DNA from: Branchiostoma lanceolatum
Lineage: Eukaryota; Chordata; Leptocardii; Amphioxiformes; Branchiostomatidae
Direction of reading: 5' to 3'
Length of the DNA: 64,000 bases
NCBI RefSeq assembly: GCF_035083965.1
Contig: NC_089731.1
Span: forward strand, 10,576,001 to 10,640,000
Below, one piece after another: positions 12,576 to 57,146 of this stretch; position 1 is the first letter of the stretch, and each line of letters begins with the position of its first letter. Both the position numbers and the translations under genes were made by a program. The notes below the pieces were generated by a model that saw only the letters and a list, made by a program, of their open reading frames with translations, did not search any database and was not told where the DNA came from.

Positions 12576-15500
12576 TCAGAGGTCTTTAAACATGTCATTA
12601 AAGAAATCGAGGACTGGATTATCACCTCTTCTAACCGGTTTGCCGCCTTTTCTGCTGGCCTCTGGGGCTCCACGGGGGCGTGTTTTCCACTGGGGAGGCG
12701 CTACTTCGTCTGATCCACCGAATCCCAGGAAGTCCCAGAATGAGGGCTCATCTTGAACCTTTTGTCCTAATATCAATGGGAAAATTGGGTTCAGTCACAC
12801 CACAGTTCAAAACAAATGCAAGCATGTGAGTTTTTATTCAGCAGGCAAAAGAACAAACCTTAAGAGGCCAAAGGTCTGATCCACACATGACAGGAAATAA
12901 TTAGACAATAGAATGCCTTGCTACGACTGGTCTATCTCTTCTGTGTATCAACTTCTTTTTTCGAGTGGTACAACTTAAACATTACTACTGGACAAATTAC
13001 GATAAAATTAAATTTGTCCAGTAGTAAACATTACTACTGGAAAAATTACGATAAAATTTTTTTATCGTAATTTGTCCAGTAGTAATGTTTAAATTGTACC
13101 ACTCTATTTGCTTACCTGGATGTTTAACATTCATAATCGAAACTCTTTTTTCGCTCATCTGACTCGTCATGGCAGAATCGTTGGCACCTTTGCTCCCCAG
13201 CATCCCCCATAGTGAGGACCCACCCTCATCACCTCCTTCTAAGAACAACAAAATGTAGATCGAGCAAATGTTCGTTCACACCATAGTTTTATTTACTTAA
13301 GAAGGAAACAGACGCAAAAAATAAGGAAACAGATGTAAAAGTGTGTGCAAACTAGCTCTCTTTCCCTATATCAAGCAGCTGAATTTTTCCCAACCATGCG
13401 AAAAGATCGTTTTCGCTAGATGTCATCAAAACCAATTACTAAGTACCTCCTTAGAATGTGATCGTTCAATGTGTAGACTATTTAAAACTCAATCGCAGTA
13501 CTATACTAACGCCCCTGCCTCTGAGGTGTCGCCAAAAAGCCGCCCTACGTCTGTACCATTCATGTTATAGGGAATGATGAATCAGATAGTATTGATAGAG
13601 CTATACACGGTTTGGCTATGACTGGCCTATTCCATCCGAATACCAACCCTTACCTCTTTGTTCGTTCGTCTGACTCATCTTTGCAGGGTCTCTTTTACCC
13701 CCCATCCATTTACTGAGAACTGCCCGGGCTTTCTCCTCGTCCTGTTTCTTCTTCTCATCTTCGCGAGAGCCAAAGATACCACCGATGCCGTCTGTCAATC
13801 CCGAGGATTCTGAAGGAAACACTTTTGCTTGAGACACGGATAGCATTTTCTAAACTATCAAACGAGATTGTAGATGTCATTCCATATGGAAACTAGAGTT
13901 CCACGAACACATTATCTTCGCCAAATAATCAAGGCTTGTTGTGGAGAGTGAATAATATTTACATGCTTATCACCCCCTGCAAACTTGATCATACACCATA
14001 CCGTTTGAAAGTTATGATGGGGGGGGGGGAGAATGAGTCCAGTCTAGATAGAGATAAAAATCATTTGGTGGTACAGGACTAGTATATGTGTATAGTGTGC
14101 TGATATATGTTATAACTGGTCATCAAAAAAATGGAAAGTTATGATTAAATGGTACAGTCAATATATATGAATAGAATAAATCTTTATTCCATATCATACA
14201 CATTTTGCAAGACATAGTACATGTTACTTTTCCATACGGTGCTAGGTAATACCTAGCAGTGGTGCAGTTTTGGTGCAGTGTACTCTCTGAGCAGAGGAGT
14301 GGGTCCGGCTGGTTATTCACATGTTTTTAGGTGTTTTGTAAGGCTTTCTATTTTGTTCCCTTTCCGTTATGTCTCAACCCGTGTGTTGGACAAAAATGCC
14401 GAAATTGAACACTTTAAAAACCAACCGAACCCACACATCTGCTTGAAATGTAGTGAGACTGCCCCATTTGTTTATTTATGTACCCCATCTGTTTATTTAT
14501 GCTTCTAGGCAAGGCCTTCTGTTGGCCTGTTTCGGGAACCCTGTCACATGCCCCATTATGGAATGTAATGGATTTACAATTATCCTTACCAATTATGCAG
14601 ATTAGCCCCTGTTTTCTATAATTAGACATCGATTGTGCAAAGCACCATCTGAGCTCTCTACATACAAAACTTCACGACAATCTCTTCACCCCTTCTCAAG
14701 TAATACGTGTCCGAATGTCAAAACAAAAACACCCACTGCAGTTCTGAACAAGCCGCTAGGGGGCCCAAACTTACAGAACTTACTTCTTGTGGCATGAACT
14801 ATCTACCACCCAAATATCATGACCATAGCACTTTCAGAAAATATGCCAGTAAATTTTGAAGCTCCGCTGCAGTACTTTAGATACTCGCTAGAAGGCCGAT
14901 TATCGAACTTGACCTTCCTTTCCGTAAACCCTACCCATCTACTAAATATCATGCAGATCCATCAACAGCTTCTTGAGTTATATTGTCCACAAGAAAATAC
15001 ACATCCACACAAAGCCCGCTGCAGTACCGACGGAAAATGCCAGGAGAACAATTTTTGAACTTGATCTCCGTTTTTACAACATCTACACACCTGCAAAAAA
15101 TCGTGAAGATCCATCAACGTTTCCGTCACTTTTTTTGCCTACATACAAACGCACGAAAATGAAAAGTCCGCTGCAGTACTGTTGAAAAACGCATGGTGAA
15201 CCTTTTTTGAATTTGACCTTCCTTAGCACAACCACTACACACCTACCAAAAATCATAAAGATTCATCAAAGGTTTCTTGAGTTATGCTCTTGACATACAT
15301 ACAGACCCACCAAACAGCTGGCTCAACCGAAAACATAATCTACCCCGAGTACTATAGTACTCGGCGAAGATAACAAGACCTAGTACCTACATCCAAAATA
15401 TCAAGACAATCCGTACAGTCCTCCTCGAGGTATCATGTTAACAGGTGGAAGGACACACACAACCCAACGCTGTCAAAAACATAGCCTCCATTCTACATGG

Positions 15501-18500
15501 AGGTAAAAAGCAGTTACCACTTAGTTGCTGGAATAGAACGACTTCTAGCCATAGATTGACGACTGTAGTCTTTATATCATGATATCATAGTGTAGAGGGC
15601 GTCATCCTCTCTTGACTGAGCCAACGGCCGTATTACACAATGCTCTAATCAACTGTTGGTCATGAATAGAACAATTATGATGCCTTGCTACGACTTGTAC
15701 GGAGACCAACCTTTCTTTTCGCTCATTTGACTCATCACGGCAGCATCGTTGCTACTTTTGCTTCCCAGCAAGCCGCCTTCAGCGTTTTCTCCTGAGAAAA
15801 AAATGGTCAATTAACTAGTTATAACACGTCGTTTATGAATTGCAAATCGATGTAACGTTCGCAACCTTTTTCGTGAGGAAACCCCCACAAATATATAAAA
15901 TAATGTCTTTCAATACGTCCGCTACATTTGTTGTCATATCTAGTTATGATTCAAAGTACATGTATCTGTATATCATAAGAACTATTGACAACATCGCCGG
16001 TCGTCTGCTTACATACCGACTGTTACGACTTGCTATACGACTTGTAAAGCTCTGCCAGATACTAACCTTGTTCGCTCATCTGACTCATCGTAGCAGCATC
16101 TTTGCCACCTTTGCTTCCCAGCAAGCCCCATAGTGAGGACCCACCTTCATCATTTTCTCCTGAGGTCGATGATCAAAGAAAAAGTTCATGAAATTAAGAA
16201 AACCATGTAACTTTTAGCCTTTTAATGAAAACCACAATGTCAAACAATATCCATCAATTTTAATCAAGACATTGTATGTCATCCTCTATTGTCAACGCAG
16301 CGCATTTTACCGACCTCAATAGACCAATAGAAAGCATTGATATGTATTGTCCGGATCCTTACCTCCTTTTTCGCTAATCTGACTCATCGTGGCAGAATCA
16401 TTGCCACTTTTGCTTCCCAGCAAGCCCAATAGCGAAGACTTGCCATCCCCATCTTCTCCTAAAAGTAATGATAAATGGACTAGTTGTGAGTAGTTGTTCA
16501 TGAAATTGATGACATGCTATGGTCGTGATTTTTGAGTGGTAGATAGCTTTTGGAACAGAGAGTAAGTGGTGTTGGAACTGCAGGAGAAGGCTTCGTTTCA
16601 AACTTTGAAAGAGAATAAGGAGAGAGGTTGACGGATGTTCATGATTTTCTCTATGTAGATATCTTGAGTGATGATTTACAGAATTAGATACTAATGAGGC
16701 AAATCAGTGGCTAATTTGCGTAATTAATGAGGAAAGTTTATACATCCACTGCAGTTCATGATAGGACTCTCAAACATGTGTAACTGAGAAAGCTACATAT
16801 GTCAATGCGTTTTAGGGACTGTTTCGGTTGGTCATCAATAGACCAATGCAATGCCTTGCTCCGAATTGTACATGTCGGGATACCAACCTCCTTTTTCACT
16901 CATCTGACTCATCATGGCAGCATCGTTGCTACTTTTGCTTCCAAGCAAGTCCAATAGTGAAGACTTGCCTTCGCCTTCTTCTCCTTAAATCAATGATCAA
17001 GATCAAAGTTAAAAAAACTACTTTTTATTTCTAATTTGTCGTTGATGAAGTTGAAAACGATGTAACGTTAACGTTCCTTGCTTTTTTTCACGAAAAACAC
17101 AAATATGTCAAATATGCATCAGTACCTTGCCTACTTCTGTTATACACGTATTCATAATTGTGGGAATTTGTATATCATCTTCTATAGACAACGCCACAGG
17201 CATCTCTACGTAATGCGTTATAGTAACCGTCAGTAGAATGACTGGTCTTCTGGGTACTGACCTTTTTCACTCATCTGACTCGTCATGGCAGGATCTTTGT
17301 CACTTTTGCTTCCAAACAGGCCCCATAGAGAGGACCCGCCTTCATCATCTTTTCCTGAGATTGATGGCAAAATTGATTCCAAGCATTTGTATGCGAAGCT
17401 TTCTAATTATAGATTACTTGTAGTCGGCATCGACAGTAGAAAAATACCATGCATTAGCAACCCCCCGTTATCCTTGCTTTCTCGTTGTTCAGATGATCCC
17501 AAGATGCTTGAAAAGATAGAGCCAGCATCTGACAACATAAATATGAAATGGAGCTCATTTCATCGTGTTGTGTACATATACAGTTGCTGCATTGACTGAT
17601 GGCCTAGATATATTCGAGTCGGCAGAATCGTTGGCACCGGAAAGTGACTACTTGGTCAGTATGTCAGACAAGTGTCAACTTTAGGGGCCGATGCAATAAA
17701 AAGCCCCGGCCTGGGTCGACACCAGGAAAGCTGCCCGTCAACAATCAAACGCCAGGTACCATATGATTAACAATAAATTGATCTGATGCTTAAATATGCA
17801 TTATTATGCATGAAATACAGCAATTCTGTATGTAAGAAACAAAGTAACTGCCTTCAGTTGTATTTCATCTATCATTCAGATTCATACAATCTTATGATAA
17901 AACTCAGAATCTTTTGATACCTGCTAATTTGTTTACTGTCCCTTTTATGTTCATTACTGTCACCCGCAGATAAATGAAGTGGTTCGACCCATCTGACGTC
18001 ATTTGTCTTATTACTATCCTCGGTGGGCTAAATTTAGTTGCTGACAGAAAATAGTACTCCGCTATTAACAACGGATAATCTTGCAGAATATGAAAAATTT
18101 GCCTATGATGATCTACATCCGTACATCGAAAATTTATAGGTTAAATTCTTATCAATGTATCTCATTTTGACTTTGATGGCCGTCAGATGTCACTGCGGAT
18201 GGATATGAAAGATTGTCTGTGGATTTTCGCGCCAGTGAAGCTGTAAACGTCGTGGGGAGACGCTGTGTGTTGGTATGGCCCTGTGTTCGTTTTGTTCTGT
18301 TAGCTTTTCTTACGAAATGATAACGTTTTGGTTGGCTTTTTTGTTTTGCTACTGCATAATGCTGACTTAGGGGTGCATTGTTGTTGTCGCGATGGTTTAG
18401 TTTCCTTGCTCTTGTCGAGTGATCGATTGAGCTTGCCCCCCTCCCACATTTCCCGTTATTGGTGTTCGACATGGCCGTCCTCACGGTATAATGTAGTGTC

Positions 18501-21500
18501 ACTTCGTGTCATAGCCTGAATGTCATCTTGATTAGTTCCACCCAGGCTCTTCCTTCACTGTGAAGGCATGGCCTGGAACTAAACTAGAACTAAACAGGAT
18601 GACACCCAGGCTCTTCGTGTCATGTCTATGCCTGTAAATGTCTGTCTTTCAGTTCTGTAAGGGAAGGATATTTCAAATTATGCTTATCAAGATAATTCTT
18701 AGCCAATTGTAGGGTGTCTTAAACTGCTTGTGGACTATACAGCTGCACCGTGTCGACGACGCCTCTCAAATACATCTTTTGAATATGCAGAGCAAAGACC
18801 TATTTCTATATTAATCAAGATTTTCTAGTTGACATGGCAGAACGTCTAGTTTACCCAGAATGTTTGCCAGGAATGTTCTGTAGCTGTCCAGCCTCTTGGA
18901 AACCCAGACTTCAGGGACTGTGCCTGACACAGTGGTGGCTGGTTTGGCTTACATGTGTAGTTAGATGGGTTCGCTGGATGTTATAACGCCAAATTAGTCT
19001 CTTTTTTATTGCTCTTGTTGCCAGTCTGACAGTTACTCTTACTGACAATGATTTCAACCCCTACAAGGTACAATTTTCAAATCAGCAGTTGTAGATGTAG
19101 CACTTAGTTTTAAGTTTCCTTTATTTTTGGTACTCACCGATTTTATTTTGTTCTTGGTTGTCACCATCGTCTCCTCCTCCGCCTGTTTGCAGCTTTTCCT
19201 TCTTTTCATCGGTACCCATTAGATTCAGGACGGATCCCTTAACGCCACCAACGAATCCTATGAAAAATTTGACATGAAATAAGTATCTCTGTCTTTGTGA
19301 CGGGTGTAACGGTCACAGAAACTGCGTTAAAGGGCGCTTAAAATCTAACTTTACTCACCAGATACGTCAGTTTCTAAATCTGCCGGTTTCTTTTCTTCCC
19401 GTTCATCAGCACCCATTACGCTCAAGAGTCCCTTGAAGCCGCCAAACAATCCTGCGATTGACAATCATGGCACGTTAATCACGGGGGAACTTAAAATGAT
19501 GATGAAAAGACACACAAGTAGTTTAGGGTCAGTGATGTCGGCAGTATTTGTAGTGTCATATTTGTCTTGTACATGGACAATAGCTGCAATACAGGCGATT
19601 GGTATGTTAGGTTTCTTCTCCTTGTTTGCGCTTCTCTGGAATCTGTTGCATCCTAAACGTATTTGATTTTGTCTCAGTCACGCTATTGATAGACACGCTC
19701 TCTGAAGGACTAGCAGGATCTGAACAATTCAGAGCAAACCGCCAAAAACACTCATGTGCACATTTTAGCTCCATACGAAATACCTGTTGCTTTCCTTTAA
19801 AAGAGATGGCAAAGCTACTAGATGCAATCTGTCTTACGTATTGTCAATGAAACTCGGCTGTAATGTATGTATGTACCTGACTTCGTGTCTTTTTCTGGCG
19901 TTTTCACTACATCCTCGTCAGTTTTGTAGGTCTTCCTGGTTAATACGTCTTGTAGTGTTGTATTGGCTGAGCCGGATCCCCTTGCTTGTTCCGCGGTCTG
20001 AGCCCGGGACATCAGTGAAGCCCAACCCCTTGGCTTTGAAGTTTTGTCTGTATAAATGTATAAACTTGAATCACATTTGAAATGCTCTAAATTGCCTCCA
20101 GATTGTTAATAAAACTCAGTTGTATGTACCTGACTTCGTTTTCCCTGGGGTTTTCACTACATCCTCGCTAGTTCTGATTGTCAATCTGACAATCACGTCT
20201 TATCAGCCTAAAAAAGGTACCTACCTTCTTGACCGGCAATAGGCATCCTCTTAAGGACGTTAATAGAACGGGAGCGGACTGCACATGAAACGGCAAAGAG
20301 TATGGTTATGATTTCATCCTTTTGTATGATCACAATGCTAAACATTGGTGCGAAAAAGGATACTCCTATTGATTATAAGCTCAAAGCCATCGACTTTATC
20401 ATAAGTATTAGATATTGTCTGTGAGTGATTGGTCATAGAACTAACATGCCTGCTACGCAATGTCGACTTAGTCCCTCCTGCAAATTTAGATGTCTGGGAT
20501 GTCGACCAGAAACAATCAAAGATACTGTTATGTGCCAATCCAGAATGTGAGAATTGTGTCCTGCGGACTCTTGTTGTAATTGTAATTGTCAATGAAATTC
20601 GGCTGTAATGTATGTATGTACCTGACGTGTCTTTTTCTGGCATTTTGACGACATCCTCGTCAGTCATGTAGGCCTTCCTAGTTAATACGTCTTGTAGTGT
20701 TGTATTGGCTGAGCCGGATCCCCTTGCTTGTTCCACGGTCTGAGCCCGGGACATCAGTGAAGCCCAACCCTTTGGCTTTGAAGTTTTGTCTGTATAAATG
20801 TATAAACTTGAATACATCTGAAATGCTCTAATTTGCCTCAAGCATTGTCAACCAGAAATAATCATCGATACTGTTATGTGCCAATCCAGAATGTGAGAAT
20901 TGTGTCCTACGAACTCTTGTTGTAATTGTAATTGTCAATGAAATTCGGCTGTAATGTATGTATGTACCTGACGTGTCTTTTTCTGGCATTTTGACGACAT
21001 CCTCGTCAGTTATATAGGCCTTCCTGGTTAATACATCTTGTAGTGTTGCATTGACCGAGCCGGATTCCCTTACTTGTTCCGCGGTCTGAGCCCGGGACAT
21101 CAGTGAAACCCAACCCTTTGGCCTTGAAGTATTCCCTGTAAAAATGTGTAAACTTGAATCACATTTGAAATGCTCTAATTTGCCTAGCACGTTGTCAATA
21201 AAACTCAGCTGTATGTACCTGACTTAGTTTTCTCTGGGGTTTTCACTACATCCTCGCCAGTTCTGATTGCCTATCTGACAGTTGCATCTTATCAGCTTTG
21301 ATAAAAAAAAGTACCCACCTTCTTGACCGGCAATAGCCATCCTCTTAAGGACGTCAATAGAACGGGAGCAGCCTGCACATTAAACGACGAAAAGTATGAT
21401 CATGATTTTATCCTTTTGTATGATCACAATGATAAACATTGGTGGAAAAGAAGGATATTCGTTCTATTGATTATAAACTCAAAACTATCAGGCTTTATCA

Positions 21501-24500
21501 CAATTCTTACATTTGTTAGTGATTGGTAATAACCAACATGCGCGCTTAGCAATGCAGACTTAGTCCCTCCTGCAAATTTAGATGTCTAGGGATGTCGACC
21601 AGAAATAATCATCGATACTGTTATGTGCTAATCCCCGGGGCTTTCTACGAGAGTCGCCATCTTCATGCCTCGCACGTACCTGCTGCTTCGCCCTTTACCG
21701 CCCGTCTACCTGTGCTAGATGAATCTCTTTTAGGGGGGCCGTGGTGTCTCGTTGGACTTCTAGATAGGCTCGGGTGTCTCGCTGGACTTCTGGAGGAAAT
21801 GAGGTGTCTCGTTGGACTTCCCGATGGGCTGTGGTATCTCCTTGGACTTCTTGAGGAATTGTGGTGTCTCCGTGGGCTTCTCGATGGGCTGTGGTATCTC
21901 CTTCGACTTCTCGAGGGGCTGCCGGTATGTCGCCTTGAACGTCTAGAGGGGCTGCGGGGTCTCGTTGAGTTTCGATGTTCCTGTGCTGCCATTTTACCAG
22001 TGATTTTTTGTTGCTTTTCTGAATGTTTAATTGATGGAAGATGAGTCTCATTAAACTCAGCATTTTACGTTTGCTTGTCTTAGATCACTTCAGTTTAAAA
22101 ACCGATTTAAGTGGCTTAAAGCAATCATCTTGTAGCGTTATCTATAGGTAATGCGTTAATTATCATACTTATCAATTTACGTTCACATTTAACTAGTGGT
22201 ATCAAGACAGTTTTGGTGAAGCCATGGAAAAAAGCCACTTTTACAACTAGCACCTTTTGATGCAGTTCTTGAGTCTGCTTTTGGGATTCTCTCGTTCACA
22301 AAGACGTCCTCTAGTAAATCCGCGGTGATGCTGACTCCACCACCGGGATCTTTCTCGTAATCGTTCTGACGTGATCGGACACTGCGCTTTCTTGACTGAT
22401 GGGACTGAGGCAGCCATCTTCTTGAAGCCTCCTCAACGGGAAGGCCTAAAAAATACAAATAGGTCATCACAAAAGTCACTAGTTCCTTTCTGACAGTATT
22501 TTTGAATTCATATTTCGAATGAGGAGATAAAAAGTAATATTTACCCTTCCGTGTTCCGGGAATAGATGTTAGAATTGTGCTATTCCAATATGGCTCAGAT
22601 ATCACATTATAACACAGAGAGCTACACATTTGAAACACCTAATCACTCTTATTCGTTTGTCCGTTCTCAATACTGAGGACTGACAGCCACCTAGCGCGCA
22701 AATCGCATGCCTTAAGTCCGGATTTGTCTCCATAGACCTTTACATCTTGCTTGATACCACTGTGACAGTCATATGTATACATGTGCTGCCTAGACCGTTT
22801 CTCTTTATACGTACCATAATCAGCTGAAGGAGACACCGGGCCTTCGGCGCCCTTTAGTCTTCTCGGATTGTGGAGCAGTGCCCATGGATCTTTTCTGTTT
22901 GCGGCGTGAACAATTTTTTTTACCTTTTTGGAGGCTGAAAGGAGAAATAGCATAGAATGACATGTCGTTGCATATTTGGATTAAAGTCGTTTTGCTGGAA
23001 AAAGGATATTGATCTAGTACCAGAATTCTTGCTGCTACGAGTAAAAAAAATGCGACATGCTTACTTTCTCCAAATTTTGCATCTTCAATTAGATGTTCCT
23101 CTACTCTTTCTCCAATTTCACTAAGCTCGCCGAGCTTTCTTGTCGACTCTGTCGTCCCAGACAGCTGACGAAGCGATCCTGTGATAGTTATTCAAGCAGA
23201 AAGGTCGAGGGAGGAGGGCAATATTTTCTTGACACGAACCACAGGGTACCAGCAGTAGCAAGTAATCACAAAACATAGTGTCTCTGCTGACACGCAACTA
23301 GATTTTCGAGATTCATTGAGAATAGGCATCTTTGTATTGACAACCAGTGAAGAAGTCATTGCAAGGTAACAAAAATACGAATTAGCCATATTCTACATTC
23401 GTACCATGGTGGTGTTTTAAGTTGTAGTTGATATGTAGATCTGGCATTGATCCTCCAAACTGGGAAGAGCTGGACATCGCAACAGCGGGGGAGCCTACGT
23501 ATACATGGGCCAACACATAGGCATTATATTGATATCGTACTTAATGTGTATAATGTCTTCCATTATGTCATGAAGAATGTTTAGCTTAGGTGAATTGGCA
23601 AACAATGCTTATCAAAGCAAATATTTCCAATACTTTGTATCACATGGAATATTACAACTGATATGCTTGATAAATTTATCTGAGATCATCTACCTCTTGA
23701 ATCGTAGGAGTGCCTTCTCTCGTCATCACTGTCCGTTTTTCCGGCATGTTGATGTTCAATCCAATAATGAACAAGACTCCGTATCCTCGTCTTCTCGTTC
23801 ATGATGATTTTAGAGTTCCAATATTGTACGCGTTCATTCTGAAGAGTGCGTCGTCTCATGAGTCTTTCCGCTCTAGAGAGGCCTGTAAATATTTTATTGC
23901 TGAGAAACATGAATGATCTATTTCTTTGATAAAAGGTGTTGATTAGTATCGGCAATATTTGGACATCTAATTTGATATACTAGTATTGCCAGGGCCCGTA
24001 ATACGTTCTTCATCACTGCTTTCATTGAGTGCCAATTTGCAAAGCGGGATCGATATCCTGTGAGACGTTTTAAAACCGGGAAAAGCATTCATTGATGGCA
24101 AGCCCTATTCCATGATGATTGCTCTATCCTTAGATCGTGCTGTACTTACTCGTCCTTCCTTGTCCTTCGTTGGTGGGCATATCCAGCCCGCCAAACTGTG
24201 AATTTGGTGATACAGCGGGACCTCTGTACACTCCTAGTGAAGGGTCGACAATGAATCATCGTAAGCTGACCATGGGCAAAATCTTCGGACTATCAACTGA
24301 AGTTTCGCATGCAAAGTTGAATTTCTGATCGAATTTTGATTTCCTTTTAGTCATTGAGTTTACAGTCTGAGTGGTATGCAAGAGGTTGCTCCATATATCA
24401 ATGATCGAAAGTTTAGTAGGACAAAAGAAAGTTTAGTAACATCTTACATACTGTAAATGAGCCGATATAATATCAACATGAATTGTTACAGTATACGTGC

Positions 24501-26552: not shown

Positions 26553-26719
26553 TGTCGTAGAGCTGCGACAGCTACATTTGCATTACTATATCATGTCATG
26601 ATTTGATGTTTTCTTGTGTAGACCTGTATTAGATAAGCGTTCACATTATAACGACTCGCTGAAATGACCAAACTTTGTAACAGTACAAACACGTTTGCTG
26701 CTTCGAAAGTATAGTTTTA

Positions 26720-29435: not shown

Positions 29436-29751
29436 CATTTCACTGCACATTACACAGTAATCAACGACTTTGTCTCCCCGGCCAAATTTCAAGGATCGAA
29501 GAACACATTTTTGTCATACATTCTCTTTTTGACTGTGCTTCAAAACATTTCCTACTTTGTGGATCCTCTCTCTGCTCCTTTAAGATAAATTGCAAGATAA
29601 TGAGTCTAACTTGGGATTTCATTTCCCAAAGTGGATGTTTTGTAACTATTTGGTTCACAGGATTCAAATTACTTTATCCGTGTCCTACCAGAAATGCGTA
29701 GGGAGGGGCCTTAGGACTTGCGCTAATTGAAGTAAGATTATGTATCATTAC

Positions 29752-30584
29752 CTTCGCCAAGAAGGTTTTGTTTTACCGAGCGTGTGTGCGTGTGTCTGTG
29801 TGTCTGTGTATGAACGCGATAACTCGAGAATGCCTGGATGGATGGTATTGATATTTGGTATCTCGGTAGGTCTTTATGAAATCTTGAAATGATTAGGCCC
29901 CCTAATTTGCATAATTAATGAGGAAAGTTTTAAAGTCCACATGATAAAACTATAATAATTGTCAGTTGACAAATTGGGACAAATGTTGCCCTGCTAGCCC
30001 TTAAGCTAGAGGTCAAGACACCAAGGGATAACTAGAACCTGCATGCAACTAGTTTTTGATATGTGGATAGCTCAAGTGATGCTTGATATAATGAAATGGT
30101 ACTTATGCAAATCAGAATCTAATTTTCATAACTTTTATAAACTCACTGCATTCCATGATAGGACTATTGAATAAAAATGTAGCATATGTAACTAACAAAT
30201 AGAGGGACATTGATAGATAAAAGTTATGCAAATGAAGACCTAATTTACATAATTGATAAGAAAATACTGTAATTCCACATTGGTAAATACCTAGAATTTC
30301 ATACTTGTGTCTTTGTTAAGGCGAACATGGTTGAATGAAAATGAACTATGCAAATAAGGGCCTAATTTGCATAATTGGTCAGAACATGCCAGAATAGCCT
30401 TCTTTGTTAAGACACTGTCATACTTTAGATAACGTCTGCTATTTGGGTGGAGAAGATGATCAACTGATATAATTTATGCAAATGATGATCTTATTTGCTG
30501 ATAGAATTAATGAGAAACACTCATAACACATTGGCCGAAAAGGTTGAAATCATTTGGCGAAGGTATGAGGTCGCGGAACTCTAG
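29752..30584 (+). mobile_element. Non-autonomous element with inverted octamer pairs, copy 1
   Basis: Starts CCTTCGCCAAGAAGG and ends TTTGGCGAAGGTATGAGGTC, so the termini are short inverted repeats around CCTTCGCCAA. The interior has about five degenerate units of 110-130 bp, each with ATGCAAAT facing ATTTGCAT about 15 bp away and often followed by AATTAATGAG. No coding frame. Copy 2 is at 57250-58411 and a reversed copy at 13893-15372. Confidence 0.65.
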
Positions 30585-31199
30585 TAATATATTTGTTTGA
30601 TGGCGGTGCTGATATAAGTTTGATGTAACTTATGTGCGCCGTCATCTTGTCATCTGCACATGTTTATTTCTGTTTTGATACAAAAACAACTTTCAATCAT
30701 ATACAGTAAGGTCGCGGCGATTTACTCATACTCTACCTTACATCGTGCTAGATACTGGTGAAAGATACAAGGATAAAGGATAGAAATTAAAATATTTTAA
30801 AGAATGTCTGTGCTATATAAGTCCATGTTCTATACACGAGCCATAAGGTTGTCAATGTTTCATGCCGTTTCTTGATACACTTATTATCACACCAATTATT
30901 TCGTATTGTACACAATTGGTGTAAAAAGCACATTGGAACAGACAAAGTATCGAATAAAACTAGTGCGAAGACGTTTACGTAGATACTGTCCAACACATAC
31001 CTCTCCAGTATGCAAAAATAAGTTACACATTACATTTCGTATAAAAGTTAACCTGTGTCGGTGTTAATCATTATCATGAAAGAGATTAGCTATCTCCATA
31101 GAGCTTCATCTGAGCTTGGGTCAGTAGCTGCCCTAGGTCATGAAGATGACTATACGATGTCCAATATCTTAAGTTGATAAATAGTAAAAACTCAGGATT
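30585..31199. other. 3' flank of gene B
   Basis: Segments near 30965-31010 and 31205-31235 resemble the 3' flank of gene A at 12410-12490 and 12597-12620. This supports a duplication that carried both gene ends. No gene is seen. Confidence 0.45.
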
Positions 31200-45726: not shown

Positions 45727-48700
45727 TTAGGTCTTTTTCTTTTCTTTCTTTTTCTTCCCCGGCATGTTTGAAAACCAGCTGAGGTCTGGCATCGATGAAC
45801 CGGAGACCGATGATGCTATGAAATCAATAAAAAAATAAGAAAAGATAATTATCTCTCCCATTCTATGTTTCACTTGTATTCAATACAGCCTCTCTAAAAT
45901 ATGAACAAAGTTAGTCTCACTCCACATCTTTTGATACCACTGATAAGCTAGATACTAATAGTAGAGACCTGTTACGACAGGAAGCAAAGCACAACCCAAA
46001 GATATCTTAAGTACCTGAACTACGTCTTCTGCCGGAAGATTTGAGATAGCTCAGTGGAGATAAGGTGTTCAGGTCGGTGTTTTTGTCAGAACTCCTTCGT
46101 CTTTCAGTCCTTGAGGCCGATGATACTGTGAATGAAAAAAAATATTAGAAAAGAAAATATAAGAGTGTCTCCCATTCTATGTTTTCACATGTATTCCGAA
46201 TTCCATCCTCTCTAAAATATGCACAAAGGTAGTCTCACTTCGCAGCTTTTGACACCAATGATAGGCTAGATACTAACAGTAGACAACTGTTATGGCAGGA
46301 AGCAAAGCACAACCAAGAGATATTAAAAATGTACCTGCACTCGCATTAGAACCACGTCTTCTCCTGGGGTACATGTCCATGGGAGATAAGGTGTTCGGGT
46401 CGACGTTTTTGTCAGAACTCCTACGCCGATGCCGCTGGTTCCCACAGGCTGGTCCAGCCCTGCGAGGAGCCCTCTCCTCATCGGGTGCCATACCGAGGAG
46501 GTCTTCTATGCTTGACCACCAACTGCGCGGTGAGAACCAGTCCATGTTCTCCTTGTCATCTGACCTCTTGGTTGACTTCTCGTTCTGAGGGGGAAAAATT
46601 TGGACTGACGGGAGGTCATCCAAAAAACCGGGCGGTCCTGTGAAATGCAGTGATACACAATGACTTAAATAACGGTGGACTTGGTACTATAAGTTTTCTA
46701 CGGTATGTAGTTTTGTTATAAACTTGTTGTCGTTCAACTCTTGGTGGTTAAGAATCCATGACTAAACCAGGACGAATATACTAAAAGCGAATTTTGTAAA
46801 CAGATAATACGTGCCACATTCCTACAACATATCCATAATTTAGATAAATGAATAAGCTTAAGTGCAATAACATCTAATTCATTCACCTCTACTTTCCTGC
46901 TGGTCTCTACCACTGTCTCCCCAAAGAGATTGCTTCAGGCTATTCATAAATCCTTGAGAGAGAAAAAGTTCTTGCATCAGCATAATAAGTCAAACATTCG
47001 TTCGTAGCCTTGCCTTGAAAGTCAATTTACGTAATCATTATCACCGAAATCCTCATGAAAATTCTTAATTCCTATCTAATTGTACAACAAAGTCATACAG
47101 CACGTTGTCACAGAAATACCTGTCACAGAAATACCTGAGTTCCCTGCATCCCTGTGACTTCCGGTGTCCTCCCCTCTCTTCCAACTTCCCACGAAGGAGG
47201 GTCGTCGCTTTTCTGACTCACCAGTCGTCCATGAGTCAAAGCTACTTTTCAGACTGTCTAGTAAACCTTGGTGAAAAGGACAAAAAACATTCGTGCTTAT
47301 TGACTAGTTATTATCAATATTGGCAAACCTTTAAACCTTCAATTTGTAAAATTTAAGATTCCTTATCAACGTACTTGGTGAATTCTCCTCTTGGTTCTTC
47401 CCTGCTTGTCCTCCGATGACCATGTTGTGCACGATACCTGGGATGTGATCTTCGTACGTACCACGGTCTTCTACGGTTTCGGTTTCAGGAATTCGTAGGA
47501 ACGTTTTAACCCCACTCGCAAAATCCGAGAGCATTGCAGCTCCTCTTCCAATTGGCTCTGTCATTGGAAAGACATATGAAATGTTTTACAACTGTGGATT
47601 TAAGCTGATCCCCGAAAGTACCTGGGACTAGGTTTAGCATGTACAAAGATGTTTCAGTAAATGTATCACTTGATAGATGCTATTTGAGACGTCCTTACTG
47701 ATACCCAGCTCAATATACTTGTGTTATGATTTACTGTACCAACTAAGTAAATCCGTTCTTACGAGAGCCACGTCTTCTGCCGGTGTTGTCCTCTCCTGCC
47801 TTAAAGCTTCCCAAAATGACAAGGTTCTCATCAGAAAGTTTATTGTCTGAGCTGTCCACCACATACTCCATAGGGGGGGCATTATAGAGGAGTTTCCCGC
47901 TGCTTCCGGAGCTTCTTCCTTGAAGAAAAAGACAGATAACGAAAGATGAAACTTTCTCGACGTCAGGGATTTATGTTATGAAAAGCCAGCGTCTCCAAAC
48001 TGCTACGCGCGTATTTCCTTGTTTCTTCTGGAATCTATCTATCTATATCTGTATTTGTATCTATTCTATATAGCCGGTAAAACCGACCTTCGGCGTAACA
48101 AACCAGCTTAAAGTTAAGAATTAAGCGACAATGTACTATGATAATGATGTTAATTTCTGTCTTTGTGAATTGTGTAACATTTACAGAAGCTATGTTAAAC
48201 GCCACTTTAATTCAACATGTCTTTTTCAACGTGATACAGTGCATATATCAGTAAGAAATGGTAATATTAATGATGATGACAGCATATATCAGTGAGATGT
48301 CACATACTTGAGTCATCCGATGCTTTCCCATGTGAGCTACCGGTGTCCTCGCCCCAACCAGGTTCGCCCAGTTCTGTGGGGTTCTTTTCATTCTGTTCAT
48401 CACCACCCAATAAGTTCATAAAGGATCCCTTGAAACTGTCAAAGAACCCTGTGAATATCAAATTCAGTAATGCATTAAACAGTTGATGGTTATATAAGGA
48501 GAATTCAAACTCTACAACTGTGGATTTACAATGATTCCCACAAGTAACAACTACCTGGGACTGGGTTTAATATGGACAAAGATGTTTCAGTTAGTGTATC
48601 ACTTGATAGATGCTATTTGAGACATCCTTACTGACACCCAGATCAATATCCTTGTGTTATGATTTACTGTACCAACTTAGTTCTTACGAGAGCCACGTCT

Positions 48701-49776
48701 TCTGCTGGTATGGTCCTCTCCTGCCTTAAAGCTTCCCAAACTGACATTCTGCTCATCAGAAAGTTCGTGGTCTGAGCTGGGCACCACGAACACCATAGGG
48801 GGGGCATTATGGAAGAGTCTCCCGTTGCGTCCGGAGGTTCTTTCTTGAAGAAAAAAGATAGATGAAGAAAGATAAAACTTTCTAGATGACAGGGATTTAT
48901 GTTATGAAAAGTCAGCGTCTACAAACTGCTCTGCGCGTATTCCTTTGTTTCTTCTGGAATCTATCTATATTATATATCTACATCTATTCTATAAACCGTA
49001 TAACCGACCTTCGGCGTAACAAACCAGCTTAAAGTTAAGAATCAAACGACAATGTACTATGATAATAATATTTTTTTCTGTCTTAAAGTTTGTGAATTGT
49101 ATAACATTTACAGAAGCTGTGTTAAACGCCACTTTAGTTCAACATATCTTTTTCAACGTGATATAGTGCATATATCAGTAAGAAATGGTGATGTTAATGA
49201 TGATGACAGCATATATCAGTGAGATGTCACATACTTGAGTCATCCGATGCTTTCCCATGTGAGCTACCGGTGTCCTCGTACCAACCAGGTACGCCCAGTT
49301 CTGTGGGGTTCTTTTCCTTCTGTTCATCACCACCCACTAAGTTCAAAAAGGATCCCTTGAAACTGTTAAAGAACCCTGTGAATATCAAATTCAGTAATGC
49401 ATTAAACAGTTGATGGTTAGTTCTGATGTCAATATCTCTTGGATCATACACATACTCGTGCTGAGATGTATTGGGACGCTGCTCCATTACATCAAGGGTA
49501 ATTTGTCCTCCTTTGGAATTGTCAATAAGACTTTACCTGACATTGCGTTGGTGTCTTGTGCTTTGTGTAAATCTCCATTGGCTTTGTATGTCTTCCAGTT
49601 TGCGCGCTTGTCGTCTTGCAGTCTTGTCTTGACCGAGCCGGATACCCCTGCATCATCTGCTGTGGTAGCTAGGGACATCTTTGAAGCCCAACCCGTTGAA
49701 GTATTTCCTGTATAAAAGATATTTTTATACTATCTTTATGTACTAGCTGTTGTCAATTTTATGTAATTTCAATGAC

Positions 49777-49807
<31 letters not shown>

Positions 49808-49812
49808 CTGCT

Positions 49813-49851
<39 letters not shown>

Positions 49852-52800
49852 CTTCATGACCTTGACCTGTGTCACCAACAAAGGCCTCAGGGCGGACCTG
49901 AAAACCTATCATCTATCACAATCCCAAACGACCCTCACAAAATACTCGGTAACTCATTCCTTCACCAAGCCATCCATCTGTATAACATGTCAGCATGTTA
50001 ACGCCATTGCCATTCTTATCTATGTATATATGTATAAATTACTAGTAGTTAATTGTGTATATTTTTGTAATAGTCTTTGAAAACATTGACACAATTCAGA
50101 TGTATAACAGTGTAATTCTGCCGATTTGATTTTACAATTGAATCGAAATTGAAATAAGCTTTCCATCACAGACCTGGTGCTCTTTTAGGCACACGATTGA
50201 CAGCATACTGCCTAATTGCACTGGTAAAGTGTCCTAGCTGTTTATGGTCTTGAAGATAGATTTCATGTTCTGACAGTGCTCTTATCAATCAAGTAGGTGA
50301 GGGTCGAACATTACTTTTGTCAGACCTAAAGATGTGTAAACTTATTTTTTGCCTATACCTTCTGATGTTTGATCTGTCTTTAGTCCTCTCGATGGATTCC
50401 GTTTGCCTTCAATCCGTTGTTCTTCCTTTCCCTTGACGAGCCCGGATTTGCCATCAGAAGGCGTCTCTGTGCTTCCCCTGCTTCTAAGTTTGCTTTGGTC
50501 TCTTGCACTCGGACGTTGCCCCCTGTTGGGTCTCTTCCCACCAACGTCCATAGATCGCGAGCGACCTGCATATTCGACGAGAAAGAAAACATAATGCTAA
50601 TCTTTTATAAAAAGGTTTGACCATGAAAAAATACATGTTGGTACCAATCAACAAGAGGTCGCCTAATTGATTACCACATCAAAGTCATTAGGTATCTTTC
50701 TAGTATTATTTACCCTTCGTGTCAGTACATGTACCTGGTTCATTCTTTGTCGTCCTTTTTCCTTTAGCTGGCCTATCTCTTCTAGAGGGGTTACCGGGTT
50801 TCTCTGGACCTCTAGAGGGACTGCGGCGTCTTCTTGGACTTCTAGAGGGGCTGTGTTTTCTCCTAGGACTTCTAGAGGGGCTGCCAGGTTTCTTTTGGCC
50901 TCTAGAGGGGCTCCGAGGTTTTCTTGGATTTCGATTGTCTTGTGGTGGTTTCTTATTCCTGACATCCTGCTTTTCTGGATGTTTGCGCGACGGAAGGGCA
51001 ACTTTCTCACCAGATACTCCTTCATCTGCCGAGAAATACCATCATCATCATCTTATTCAACTCAACGTTAAATGATAGCATGTGAATGTTGTGTAGCTCT
51101 GCATCAGTATGGTATTGTAATTGAATTGAAAGAAAATCAAACCAATTATCTTTATAATTCTCTTATAAAGTCAGTTTCTTGTCATAAGCATATTGGGGTC
51201 ATTCTTAGCTTCAATATGTCTTGGCACCATCATATAGACAGTATTGTTTCTAAAAATTATTTAGTGCTTTAAAATTCAAGTTACTCCTCCATGTCATAGA
51301 AAAATTTACAAGTCTCTGTATACGCTCTTTATTAGAATATGCTGACATTGTCAGGCACGGGTGCACAATCGAGGAATCTTACCTTGTCGAAAGAATCCAG
51401 TATCACTGTTCCCTCGTTGTCTCCGGTGCGATAAATGGGTCATCATACTCTTTAACTTGCGAAGAGCTCGGCTGGGAGACTTTGTCCGACAGGCGACATG
51501 TTCATCGCCTTTTACTGTTTCATAACATTGTAAATGGATGTACACGTGAATATCTTTGATACTTTACTTCCGTACACAATTACTGAGACATGTTCGTACG
51601 AACTGAGAAACAGTATAAAATTGAGAACTAGAAAATGTTCTACTAATTATTTTGGAAAGTCTTTTGCTCCATATTCCTTAACTGGGTGGAACAATTAAAC
51701 TTGAATATTCGTACCCTTGTTTATGCAAAATTTCGAGCACATCCTTTTCAAATCTTTATGTCTCGCCAAATTCAGTCATTTCAACTGTGGTTCTCGTTTT
51801 TTCCAGAATTCTCATTTCACGACTTCGTATGGGCATCTGCAACTTGAACCATTAATTTCAACACCCTCTCTGACAACGTTAAACAGCTTCTAATTCTACG
51901 TGGTGTTTTTTTTTCTTCTGACTTCAACAGAAAAATCATGTTAGCCACCCAAGATTACATTACAGCAACTAATCGTTTTTAGATATGTGCCCTTTTTTGC
52001 TTTTCGTCCTCTGGGTGGGGAGTTTTGGACTCACGTTTCAACTAGGGTTCTGTTATGTACCTACATATGTATTCATTCACTTATTCGCACGTCTTGTCAA
52101 ATATTTTATTTTCCATAATGTACAAGTGACGGCAAGAATATAAGTTGAATACAACTTGAGTCCGCCGTCGCTTCGTCCATATCACTTCATTTGTATTAGT
52201 TGATGTTTTCTTTGAATATTCTCTGAATAAAAAATAAAATCGAGATTGGTACTAACAGCCATGTGGCTTTGACAGTCACCACGTCATCATTGGGACCATT
52301 TTCATTACTAAAAATCAATTTCTTATTTCAAAACATCTGGGGTAAGATGGCTCAAGCCGTAGATCGATGCAGGTCTAAGAGACCACCTTTCTGGAGAATT
52401 TTTTTCCACCTTTATTTAACCTTGAAAGTATACAATATACACTCATTCGGCCGAGGCCGAATATTTAAGATGTTATGATTAAAACGGATACCTTTTGGAT
52501 CGTGTCCCGGTCTTCTGTCTGTTTTCGGGATTCTTTCGTCCTCAAAGAAGTGTGAAACTATGTCTGCAGTGATTCTAACTTCAACACCACGAGGGCTCTT
52601 CGAATCTCTGTCACGTGATCTGACACTCTGGTGTTTTCTTGACTGATGAGTCGGGGCGGATGGTCTTCTTGAAACTTCCCCAGATGTGGCGAGGTCTTGG
52701 CAAGCGTTGGTAGCTTTTATTTCTACACAAAGCAACGTATTGATTCTAAATGGAGTGTAGTAGAACGATTAAAAGTATGACATTTGATGATATTTTGTAA

Positions 52801-55800
52801 AGATACACGTGAAGCTATTTGATGCTAGTACAAAGCTACGATATAATCGTAAAACTGGTCTCCAGCTTTGACATAGGTGAAATCATTCTATGTGTTTTAC
52901 TCCCTACATGTCAACGTGTCACATGTGCTATTTCAATGGCAGCTTATATGCACATACATAGAGAAACAATGATACAGAGAAGAAGGGGTTAGGTACTCAC
53001 TTCTATTAGGCCGTTTGCCATCGTCTTTTCTCTGGGTAGAAGGGAGCGCTGTAAAAGATTCAGGCTAGGTTTAGGTAGTACGTGGCAAGGGCACTTTTTT
53101 GATATCATCATCCGATTCTAGGGACATCATTTGAAGCCCAACCCGTTGAAGTATGTCCTGTATAAACTATATTCTTTATACTATCTTTATGTACTATTGT
53201 CAAGTTTATAGGGTTTTGTGAAGTATGTGATAAGGACACTTTTGTAACATGGCCACAAGTTCACAACATTATGCAGTACAATTTGATCTAAAAGACACTA
53301 TAGACGTTTCCAGTATGTTCATTCGATGAAAGGCGCTTTGGCCCTCTGAACATTCAACATTGATGACTTTCCCGGTAAACCGATAAACACCAACTTTAAA
53401 GATTGAATGGAAATGATAATAGTGACAACTAACATCAAAACTAGCTCCTCAGAGAAAACAACTCATCGTTCAGTGCCATCAATGTTGCTACTAACATAGA
53501 AAAATGTGATCCACTAACAGTCTATCGGCTTTGCGGCTTGGCCTTTTGGATCCCCAGCTTCTATGTGTTCATCATTGGCATCTTCAGGTAGAGTTTCTTC
53601 CATCCCTTCTCCAATGCTATCAAGCCCATCAGTCGTTCCATGGGACCTTAACGATCCTGTCATAGTGGGACACTGATGATTATCTTCACTTAAAATTTCC
53701 AGAAACAAATCATAAACTAATAACCAGACATAGTGTCTCTACCAATATTACTGAGACATCAGGAGTAATTTTTCTCGAGATGTAAAGAGGCAAATTGCAA
53801 ATATGTCTTAAGCTGTTAAGTTTTCTCTGCGTACCGTGATGGTCCTTTCCTTTGTAGTTGAGTAGATCTGGCATTGATCCTCCAAAATGGGATGAGTTGG
53901 ACATCGCGACATCGGGGGATTCTATATACGGACCGATATACAGGTGTTATCATCGGTAAAGCATATTTGTGTTGCAGACAGCACTTTCTAATCCTCGAAA
54001 AAGACCAATTAAATAGTCTTTATGATAAGATTATAATACCATGTTTACGCCATACGATGTCAAATCTGGAAACATGTTTAAACTTAGCGAATTCGCAGAT
54101 AATAATCATCAAAATAAATATCATACTTCAAAATGTGCAATTACAATAACTACTATTAGATTCAATATTCACAATTGAAATATCCAAATAAGTTTAATAG
54201 ATTAATAGATGAAATAAACGGTAAAGCTATCTGCCATGATCTACCTTTTTGGCCACCACTGGTATCGGAGTAGTGCCTTCCCCTGTCAATGGGCGTTTGT
54301 TCGGTATGACAATTGTTAAGCCAGTTTTGAACAACACTTTTCTGTATCCTTTTCTCCTCATTCAAAATCAGTTTAGAGTTCCAATACGCCACACGTTCAT
54401 TCTGAACGCTCCGTCTTCTCATGATAGCTTCCGCCCGAGTGACGCCTGAACAAATGATGTATCTGTTATTGTTGAGGTACAAAGATGATCTAATATCTCT
54501 TCGATATATTCAACTTGATTCAGTTTGTTAGCGGTAGTGTTGACACACTGTTGATCTACTGTAAGTAATAAGCCTCACGAAATGTAAAAATACAAGTTCT
54601 TCAATCCTACTTTTATTGAGCAATACTGTACCTACCTTGGCCATATGGCATGATTTTGTCTGCACTCGGTCTTTGTTGTCCTAACTGGAAAGATTGCGAC
54701 CTCGCAGAAATCCGTGATTCTTTGTCAAGGTCAATAACATCAAACGTCAATAAAGGCAATAGACAGAAGATCGCTGCTCTAATCACATTACGTCTATTGC
54801 GTCAGGTCTTATTCCATTCATATGTGCACGGATTCCATCATCAATTCATATATAAATGTTTATGATTGTTAGAAACGTTTATAAACTCAACTTAAACACG
54901 TCTTCATGCCTAGGGAGATACAGACAGATTCCTGATAGATATGTTATCTTATTGACGTGCGCTGTACTTAAGCCGGCGTCACAATTCATGCGAGCATCGG
55001 CCGATTTTGTAGATCGCCCGAAGCTCGCCGAATTTCAAAATCGCCCGAGCGTCGACCGTATTTTCCAATGAAAGTCTCGGGCGACGTCCGTCGAACACTA
55101 AAAACTAAAAATCCCCCATGAGATTGTACCATCTCTTGGACATGGACGAAGTCAGTATCAACTAACCTGGAAAAAGGCTAATATTTGGATCAACTTTTAT
55201 TTCTAAAAATCGCCCGAAGCCCGCGTAATCGACAGGACGTCGGCCGTACTTCGGCCGAAAATGCACATTTAAAGCTCGCCAAGACGTCGGCCGAGCTGAA
55301 TTTCTTATTTGTGACGGGGGCTTTACGGTGTCTTTGCCCAGCATTGCTATTTACATCTTGCATTGATCCACCAAACGGTGAAGTTGGAGAGACGGAGGGA
55401 CTTCTGACTCCTGTTGAAAGTGCGAGGTAGTCAATGTGTTCTCCTCTGCCTTTGAAAGATACAACTTGATTGTCAACGGTAGTATGTGCACACTGTCGAG
55501 TCTAACGTAATGAAAGCGAAAAGTTCTTCATTCCTGGCTGTATTGAGTTCTACTGTGCCTTGGTTCCGTGGAGTGATACTATATGCACTCGTTCTTATAT
55601 ATATATAAGCTGTATATTCATAGATGCTTCTGTTGATGAGCTAAAAATAAAGATGCCTGTCAATCATTTCATCTCATTAAGGGCGTGTGCTGTACTTACG
55701 CTGTCTTTGTCGATGTCCATCAGTGTTGTTTACATCTGGCATTGATCCACTAAACTGTGACATTGGAGAGATGGCGGGACTTCTCACTCCTGTTGAAAAG

Positions 55801-57146
55801 CCAATAATTCATTACCGTGACATAGGTGGAATCGTTTGATTACCAACTAAACAGTGCATGTAAGGTTGTATTTCCATATGTACACGTGTACACGTAATTT
55901 TCTGATAAGATCGGTCATTCAAAAGTGCTTCAGGGTAAATCCCTGCAAGGATATTTTTTTACTTTATCAGGCTTAATGTTATCTTTATGCAACAACACAA
56001 ACGTATATCGTGGCTGTTACCTGAGTCTGTGCTGCCGCTTTTGACTTCATCGACAGGTTGGGCGGCGTGGCTATTTTCCAGCCAGTCTCGAACGTGGTCG
56101 ATTCCCACCCTTGTCTCGTTATGTTTCCTACTCAAATGCCGAAGACGGTGAGTCTGAACGGCCAATCGTTTCTTCAAATACCCAGTCCGTGATTCAACTG
56201 AAACAAAATATGCTTTAAATGGAAGAGCATTATTAAGAGCCAATACCTAGTAAGGTAGCCAACGATCTGGCTAGCCACATACATTTTTTATCCCATTTTC
56301 GTATCCGATCTTGTTTTGGTAATGGCCACAGCAAACAAGGGAAGCATTCTCTCTCGTCATATGGAATTTATTACCTAGAACAATTTTAAGAAACCTTAAT
56401 TTACAGACTAGTTGTCACGATAACAACCGAATCTGTACTGCCGCCTCACCTGAATTTGGGTCACGGTCCTTCTCGTTGAAGTTTGATGAAGGAGACCACT
56501 GGTCGGTGTCGAGGGTTTCTAGATCACCATTGTAGGCATCTCCGTTGGTGGAATGGCCCAGCATGTTATTTAAAAGTTCCACTGATGTCGATAGCTTTCT
56601 CAGGGCCGTCTGGATTTTGGGTTGGTGTTTAACGTCCGGTAGTGTTATTGGATGTGATGGTGTGATACTGGTCGGGGGAGGTCCATTCGGATCGCCAACA
56701 GTTGCACCAAGTGCCTGTGATGGCGGGGTAAGGTCTGTTCGTGGTGTTCCCAGAGCAGCTCGTAGTGTAGAGATCTCTTGCTGCAACCGGTTTACCTCAT
56801 ATTGATGTAAGAGTTTATCCCGTTCTGCCTGCATCCTAGCGATCACATCTTCTGAAACGGTGTGAGGAGGGGAGCTTCCCTCGGGAACAGCTTCGGGAGG
56901 AGAGGTGACATCTGACGTATCCACTGGTTGCTCCCGAGAATTCGCTGCTGTCGTGGGTTCTTGTCGCCGCCATTTGCATTCGGGACCAAACCCGCTCCCT
57001 GCTTCTACATGGTCTTTCACGGGTCTACCACACGCAGTGCACATCTCAGTGGCTGTAGTCTTCTCTAGCCCCGTTGAATCGTCCTTGTCTGAAGAATGGC
57101 TTTCATCTTCCACTGTGACCACTATGATGTGTGCATGCCCAGACAT
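45727..57146 (-). CDS. Gene C: modular phase 1-1 exon gene, paralog of A and B with a different 3' end
   Basis: Modelled coding exons, 5' to 3': 57146-56450, 56197-56021, 55789-55700, 55410-55327, 54719-54636, 54445-54245, 53921-53835, 53656-53519, 53048-53001, 52722-52492, 51025-50735, 50565-50359, 49707-49537, 49375-49235, 48843-48688, 48448-48308, 47918-47763, 47557-47375, 47266-47135, 46952-46887, 46637-46335, 46125-46015, 45815-45727. Total 1328 codons, all junctions phase 1. Exon 1 has C36, C39, H46 and C57 (MCTACGRPVKDH) and a coiled coil near residues 97-133. Exon 11 is RS-rich. Exon 21 is long, with KENMDWFSPRSWWSSIEDLL. The terminal exon encodes GSSMPDLSWFSNMPGKKKKK and a short basic end, instead of the DFFND tail of A and B. 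No signal peptide. Function unknown. Confidence 0.78.
47763..49375 (-). repeat. Duplicated two-exon unit in gene C
   Basis: Exons 49375-49235 and 48448-48308 encode almost the same peptide (FKGSF.NL.GGDEQ.EKNPT, ending SSHGKASDDS). Exons 48843-48688 and 47918-47763 pair likewise (NAPPM, LGSFKAGED, RRRGS). The unit of about 930 bp includes the introns, with shared TTCTGGAATCTATCTAT tracts. Gene B has the first exon only (33598-33470). Confidence 0.82.
49778..49850. repeat. (TA)n microsatellite
   Basis: Two TA runs are separated by CTGCTACTACA, in the intron after gene C exon 12. The matching intron in gene B (about 34240-34310) lacks it. Confidence 0.95.
51120..52245 (+). mobile_element. LINE 3' relic inserted in a gene C intron
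   Basis: Broken plus-strand frames encode the end of a non-LTR reverse transcriptase: SCHKHIGVILSFNMSWHHHI, LEYADIV, then CEELGWETLSDRRHVHRLLL. The remainder is 3' UTR-like and ends GAATAAAAAATAAAAT. It is antisense to gene C, between exons 52722-52492 and 51025-50735. Gene B's matching intron lacks it, so the insertion came after the B and C duplication. Confidence 0.75.
53102..53155 (-). pseudogene. Fossil exon start in a gene C intron
   Basis: Repeats the acceptor and first 30 bp or so of exon 49707-49537 (ATACAG then ACTTCAACGGGTTGGGCTTC) but shifts frame soon after and has no donor. It lies out of order, between exons 53656-53519 and 53048-53001. Confidence 0.65.
54971..55322. mobile_element. 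352-bp element with TTA target duplication inside a splice donor
   Basis: Ends are AGCCGGCGTCACAA on the left and TTGTGACGGGGGCT on the right, which are inverted repeats with two mismatches. TTA flanks it at 54968-54970 and 55323-55325. The interior has GGCCGA- and CGCCCGA-rich tracts in both orientations and no coding frame. Without it the site reads GTACTTACGGTGTCTTTG, the same as the donor region of sibling exons. The insertion changes the donor of gene C exon 55410-55327 from GTAAGT to GTAAAG. Confidence 0.85.

Follow-up and report, generated by a model that had tools for sequence, protein, structure and literature searches.

The window analysed here, 64,000 nucleotides of the Branchiostoma lanceolatum genome (contig NC_089731.1, positions 10,576,001 to 10,640,000), contains three tandem paralogous genes, A, B and C, which are arranged head to tail on the minus strand. 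Our gene models were built independently of a preliminary description of the same DNA. In the hand-merged models, 74 coding exons meet at 71 junctions; the borders are AG/GT, and each gene closes with a single stop. The lengths of the internal exons are without exception multiples of three and range from 45 to 339 bp. Exons A7 and A22 were placed on the basis of splice sites and an open frame only, A4 and A5 on the basis of homology to B and C; the latter two are absent from the free-phase path discussed below. Alternative acceptors exist for exons B2, B5, B7, B9 and B10. The preliminary description had also reported three paralogs made of phase 1-1 exons. This architecture was reproduced; its tally was not (72 exons, 69 junctions and 1227, 1312 and 1328 codons compared with 74, 71 and 1252, 1309 and 1315 here). 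The architecture is real; the precise number of exons varies with the model.

The hand models are phase 1 throughout by construction, and a fair test of phase requires that phase is left free. A dynamic-programming gene finder was used which combined splice-site scores with codon usage, learned for each gene from the hand-model exons of its two paralogs, and accepted any phase and any start phase. The exons it chose were 1-1 in 22 of 22 cases in A, 19 of 23 in B and 18 of 21 in C (59/66 overall). The scores of the gene strand were 220 (A), 207 (B) and 208 (C), those of the opposite strand 11.0, 7.7 and 12.1, respectively. Sixty dinucleotide shuffles had a mean score of 4.5 and a maximum of 12.7, and 12 of their 123 exons were 1-1. 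Six of the seven finder exons which were not 1-1 are hand-model exons with one border shifted (B2, B9, B26, C2, C4 and C5); the seventh, 39975-39756, falls in a GC-rich tandem repeat. Such repeats, with periods of 20-32 bp, occupy 39734-39992 in an intron of B and host this false exon. Identical borders were not recovered for 13 of the 68 internal hand-model exons (A4, A5, B2, B7, B9, B11, B12, B13, C2, C4, C5, C6 and C14). When the start phase was fixed at 1, 21/21 (A), 21/24 (B) and 19/21 (C) internal exons were 1-1. Finally, a pass guided by homology only, again open to any phase, yielded 1-1 loci in 18 of 20 cases in A, 16 of 22 in B and 7 of 19 in C, compared with 173 of 572 in the candidate pool. 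The two exceptions in A coincide in position with A10 and A13 but are read in a different frame. For B and C this pass is weak because the B-C introns also align; B-C identity is 86% outside exons and 90% inside.

Selection on the proteins was examined by the ratio of nonsynonymous to synonymous substitution rates (dN/dS). In the model frame it was 0.43 (0.34-0.52) for A-B and 0.51 (0.40-0.69) for B-C; without exon 1 the values were 0.41 and 0.53. Shifted frames gave 0.85-1.40 (A-B) and 0.63-0.94 (B-C); for B-C the intervals of the model frame and of shift 2 overlap. Between B and C, one of five indels inside aligned exons had a length that was not a multiple of three, compared with 40 of 52 outside. 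Codons in the model frame are under purifying selection, which is less or nil in shifted frames. Codon-model scoring of aligned B-C candidates was weak and sometimes negative (-18.1 at omega 0.3 for the exon 1 stretch) and was replaced by dN/dS with the shifted-frame controls.

Because every intron is in phase 1, the addition or loss of a cassette, and probably its skipping, leaves the frame intact. Protein matches, supplemented by some manual splitting, sort the 68 internal exons into 21 families; 11 of these are present in at least two of the genes. Family sizes in A/B/C are unequal, for example 2/6/3, 2/3/5, 6/1/0, 3/1/1 and 0/4/1. Among 16 within-gene DNA matches of at least 250 columns, 11 begin and end in introns in both copies; one match spans C21 and the following intron and runs into C22, with exonic ends. 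Blocks of two exons were copied in A and in C, single exons in A and in B (B9 to B10, 91% identical), and B carries an expanded array (Table 1). A search of the exon peptides against the whole window found only five extra places beyond the modelled exons; these are listed as relics or partial copies. Symmetric, frame-neutral cassettes were gained and lost, as the preliminary description had proposed: unequal family sizes, intron-bounded block duplications and decayed relics all bear this out. With three paralogs, unequal counts, recent exon-plus-intron copies and dead cassettes, birth and loss of cassettes can be read in one window.

Table 1. Positions in the window of the three genes, their coding exons and individual features.
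Feature	Position	Strand	Remarks
Gene A	12576..26552	minus	25 coding exons; 1252 codons including the stop
Exons A1-A25	26552-25865, 24803-24669, 24233-24150, 23882-23694, 23494-23405, 23178-23065, 22934-22815, 22445-22254, 22018-21680, 21372-21319, 21135-20968, 20789-20622, 20278-20225, 20047-19877, 19451-19359, 19257-19138, 17354-17262, 16983-16888, 16458-16363, 16159-16067, 15791-15711, 15138-15091, 13809-13654, 13238-13116, 12766-12576	minus	
Gene B	31200..42972	minus	26 coding exons; 1309 codons including the stop
Exons B1-B26	42972-42285, 42031-41855, 41645-41556, 41252-41208, 41083-40961, 40682-40638, 40507-40385, 40107-40063, 38906-38790, 38178-38062, 37764-37720, 37536-37336, 37044-36958, 36774-36637, 36313-36242, 36009-35779, 35499-35209, 35051-34830, 34198-34028, 33598-33470, 33227-33090, 32783-32631, 32402-32340, 32172-32110, 31803-31603, 31351-31200	minus	
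Gene C	45727..57146	minus	23 coding exons; 1315 codons including the stop
Exons C1-C23	57146-56450, 56197-56021, 55789-55700, 55410-55327, 54680-54636, 54445-54245, 53921-53835, 53656-53519, 53048-53001, 52722-52492, 51025-50735, 50565-50359, 49707-49537, 49375-49235, 48843-48688, 48448-48308, 47918-47763, 47557-47375, 47266-47135, 46952-46887, 46637-46335, 46125-46015, 45815-45727	minus	
5' end of first coding exon of C, before ATG	57147..57216	minus	common acceptor TTATTCAG/GTC; in-frame stop before ATG
Exon 1 of C	56450..57146	minus	232 residues; homologs B 42285-42972, A 25865-26552
RS-type exon C11	50735..51025	minus	homologs B17 35209-35499, A9 21680-22018; 10-15 RS/SR dipeptides, 30-bp internal tandem repeat
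Block duplication in C	47587..49419	minus	C14+C15 (49419-48513) to C16+C17 (48492-47587); 88% over 920 aligned columns, all ends intronic; recent
Block duplication in A	19840..21634	minus	A10+A11 (21634-20931) and A13+A14 (20541-19840); 86% over 714 columns, all ends intronic
Duplication A11/A12	21198-20846 and 20851-20500	minus	92% identical
Expanded array B3-B11	37626..41654	minus	two short cassette families, copied together with the introns; identity 71-91%
SSLWGLLGSK...MSQMSEK array A17-A21	15655..17366	minus	additional member A24, 13116-13238
Probable dead cassette in A	17473..17523	minus	related to B24; donor GT of B is GG here
GW cassette relic	21220..21288	minus	truncated, in-frame stop
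Second relic	20131-20199		truncated
QQRPS cassette relic in C	55560..55595	minus	donor GT of B is GC here
Partial copy of B16 end	38587-38616		

Exon 1 encodes 229-232 residues with 64-67% identity between A and the other two. It contains a CxxC...H...C stretch which is invariant across the three genes and is a possible zinc knuckle; a helix follows. An AlphaFold2 model of exon 1 of A, based on the three-sequence alignment, has helices at residues 96-132 and 173-194, with a pLDDT below 50 in 132 of 229 residues. Searches of exon 1 against Pfam, NCBIfam and PHROGs gave no match above the Pfam cut-off. DUF6011 (Pfam PF19474) remained below it in exon 1 of C (residues 35-57, 14.2 bits vs 26.6, E 0.033) and had no match in exon 1 of A or B. 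Further sub-threshold matches, MscS_porin (E 0.026), CxxCG_CxxCG_HTH (0.021), phrog_25989 (0.0053) and phrog_24585 (0.047), were discounted as presumed coiled-coil or CxxC resemblances. The best E of an exon 1 profile against the PDB was just 0.42-0.65, and the first 321 residues of C had no PDB match at 0.01. The exon 1 pattern occurred six times in prokaryote genomes and four times in viral contigs; none of these matches was confirmed. Upstream, all three genes have an in-frame stop 11-13 codons before the ATG, downstream of an acceptor at the identical place (AATACAG/GTC in A). This suggests a non-coding 5' exon. Because the in-frame stop follows the shared acceptor upstream of each ATG, the proteins have no signal peptide at the modelled start codon, in agreement with the preliminary description. 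By inspection, rather than by a signal-peptide program, the N-terminus of each protein is hydrophilic.

The proteins are predicted to be largely disordered: in charge-hydropathy analysis 81-90% of 41-residue windows were classified as such. The composition is rich in Ser, Arg, Lys, Asp and Glu. Middle cassettes are basic (K+R 18.7%, D+E 11.9%) and rich in Ser, Arg and Pro; C-terminal cassettes are slightly acidic (K+R 13.5%, D+E 16.3%) and have 51 Phe among 1159 residues, compared with 18 among 1953 in the middle cassettes. The RS-type exon has been retained in A, B and C. The helical moment of the C-terminal cassettes modestly exceeded that of shuffles (Fisher p 0.0025; p<0.05 in 7 of 28), and in one of them AlphaFold2 placed a helix, at low confidence, at residues 2-13. 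In Pfam scans of the A, B and C models no family passed its cut-off, in line with the preliminary description, which had recognised no described family; Rfam gave 0 matches.

The terminal exon of C has no homology to the terminal exon common to A and B, i.e. its 3' end was changed. Within an intron of C, the open plus-strand stretch 51254-51559 looks by eye like the end of a reverse transcriptase; a Pfam scan gave no match. Tail to tail with gene A, two open stretches on the plus strand (11083-12192) belong to a GT29 sialyltransferase gene (Pfam GT29); the nearest PDB chain to their product is an alpha-2,8-sialyltransferase, and a gene of this kind is suggestive of a deuterostome. On the other side, the three-gene array is bordered by repeats beyond 57.5 kb. 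A diverged repeat, 65-77% identical, is present in the 5' flank of C (57535-58413), between B and A (30053-30585) and in an intron of A (16526-16792). Minisatellites with units of 10, 11 and 20 bp, around GTTGTTTTCG and GGCTGGTGTTC, are located at 59124-59526, 59999-60043 and 63549-63682, and a long CA repeat at 3206-3399.

On balance we favor, with some reserve, the following reading. A, B and C are three paralogs that go back to tandem duplication of a single protein-coding animal gene. Each specifies a mostly disordered, probably intracellular protein of 1250-1315 residues. An N-terminal module, a possible zinc knuckle plus helices, precedes the product of another 22-25 coding exons, of which all internal ones are phase 1-1. 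Several points weigh against it. The three genes are known here from genomic sequence alone, and no relative outside the window turned up in the prokaryote genome and viral collections searched. In the C-terminal cassettes the amphipathicity of helices exceeds that of shuffles by a modest margin only, with p 0.6-0.9 in the SSLWGLLGSK family, and hydrophobic clustering is not significant (p 0.12). The B-C dN/dS of 0.51 could also reflect loss of constraint in one copy. Single exon pairs even have a dN/dS above 1 (B15-C9 2.11, B16-C10 1.15, C15-C17 1.91); together with the values in the model frame this indicates proteins which are constrained yet fast-evolving.

As to function, the protein is a putative multivalent intracellular scaffold, a proposal which we advance tentatively and consider rather doubtful. 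The helices of exon 1 would mediate oligomerisation. The basic Ser/Arg/Pro-rich middle and the RS-type exon would point to a nuclear or RNA-linked location and to control by phosphorylation. Each C-terminal cassette, consisting of a short Phe/Leu/Trp-rich segment and a charged tail, would constitute one weak binding site, and the number of such cassettes would set the strength of binding. More generally, the genes might represent a possibly lineage-restricted, undescribed animal gene family whose members are intracellular proteins built, outside the N-terminal module, entirely of non-globular class 1-1 cassettes in series. Intronic duplication, and perhaps also splicing, would change how many cassettes a protein carries and so adjust the valency of a scaffold in the nucleus or cytoplasm. 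We rate this somewhat short of an even chance. If true, class 1-1 modular evolution, thought to involve folded, mostly extracellular domains, would extend to intracellular disordered proteins.

The strongest competing explanation accepts the same genes and denies that uniform phase 1 is a design. Introns at AG/G in Gly-rich sequence, followed by copying of exons that were already symmetric, may suffice without selection for cassettes, and we see it as evenly balanced whether they did. Junction codons specify Gly in 35 of 71 cases, compared with 9-10% Gly overall, and passages of PMC8001218 give Patthy's attribution of phase 1 introns at Gly-rich linkers to AG/G insertion sites. Further, the 68 internal exons fall into just the 21, partly hand-grouped, families, i.e. 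many phases were inherited. On the other hand, the probability that all 11 shared families are phase 1 is 2e-6 to 4e-5, provided that founders were independent and the phase-1 share, an assumed value, was 0.3-0.4. The explanation is also compatible with later selection which kept frame-neutral exons.

It is unlikely that the C-terminal cassettes are amphipathic helices of the lipid-packing-sensor type by which the protein tethers membranes. Their low-charge segments rich in Gly, Ser, Phe and Leu, e.g. GFFNSFKGSFLNLVGG, the modest excess of helical moment and the low-confidence helix modelled in one cassette would fit. However, the largest family in A has no helical moment above shuffles, the flanks are highly charged and the RS-type exon points to the nucleus; such helices in all C-terminal cassettes are not carried by 7 significant cases in 28. 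Still less probable is an origin of the N-terminal module from a retroelement gag, with the remainder added later. The layout of knuckle plus coiled coil is reminiscent of gag, yet no Pfam family exceeded its cut-off and no relative turned up in prokaryote genome or viral collections, both poor places to look. An extracellular structural protein, elastin-like or of the matrix, is highly improbable: phase 1-1 exons throughout are shared with tropoelastin, according to passages of PMC3458006, but a signal peptide is absent, in-frame stops precede the ATG, an RS-type exon is present and the composition is rich in Ser, Arg, Lys, Asp and Glu. That exons were simply chosen from repeats to suit phase 1 is hardly credible, even though the hand models have that phase by construction and the first description had a free choice, since at the level of architecture the free-phase controls and the frame-specific dN/dS refute it; individual small exons may still be wrong.

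How does our preferred reading, three paralogs of an intracellular cassette protein, compare with known systems? Literature searches, animal protein databases lying outside them, found no paper on this family among the matches listed, and it may be undescribed. To our knowledge all tropoelastin exons are 1-1, and A, B and C resemble it in their phase 1 symmetric exons. In passages of PMC3458006 the tropoelastin gene (ELN) has numerous small exons with intron/exon borders in phase 1, and its repeated disordered segments alternate. Yet tropoelastin is secreted, rich in Gly, Pro, Ala, Leu and Val and equipped with lysine cross-link domains, whereas A, B and C lack a signal peptide and have a charged Ser/Arg/Lys/Asp/Glu composition. 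The PEVK region of titin is comparable in being intracellular and disordered, with many short symmetric exons that duplicate and get lost (passages of PMC6469411); of titin's coding exons, 311 of 363 are symmetric, as stated in part of PMC9222585. Here PEVKA residues make up about 29-30% of the whole proteins, compared with a PEVK_Finder threshold of 0.54 per exon in PEVK-rich exons. Titin is a giant Ig/FN3 protein; the A, B and C models have no Pfam domain, hence no Ig or FN3.

The micro-exon genes of schistosomes consist, in the portions of PMC8293314 and PMC10526429 that bear on this, mainly of short symmetric exons, encode some disordered proteins and occur in several copies. A, B and C share the symmetric exons with internal lengths divisible by three. 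In contrast, micro-exon genes encode secreted proteins with a signal peptide and a maximum of 189 residues from exons of 6-81 bp, compared with internal exons of 45-339 bp, 1252-1315 codons and no signal peptide here. Like the shuffled modules EGF, CUB, Ig and FN3, for which passages of PMC8001218 document class 1-1 exons and in-frame duplication, the exons of A, B and C are class 1-1 and were duplicated in frame; unlike these folded, mostly beta and mostly extracellular modules, no folded cassette was recognised. The comparison of modules between genes covered the three paralogs. One exon per gene with 10-15 RS/SR dipeptides recalls SR proteins and their RS domains, but scans of A, B and C found neither an RRM nor any other Pfam domain. 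The human link between exon symmetry and disorder is mostly a collagen effect, as passages of PMC4838654 have it, and was not used as support.

A, B and C are not members of the tropoelastin, titin PEVK, micro-exon gene or SR families because a defining feature of each is absent; what is shared is the design. By analogy, this gene design has precedents in tropoelastin, titin PEVK and the schistosome micro-exon genes. The preliminary description had implied that disordered peptides in phase-1 exons lack precedent, which the passages cited for these three systems counter. A phase 1-1 cassette design known elsewhere appears here in a protein of intracellular look without a recognised domain. A class 1-1 gene with disordered, probably intracellular cassettes constitutes a natural test in which the part played by folding can be told apart from that of intron phase.

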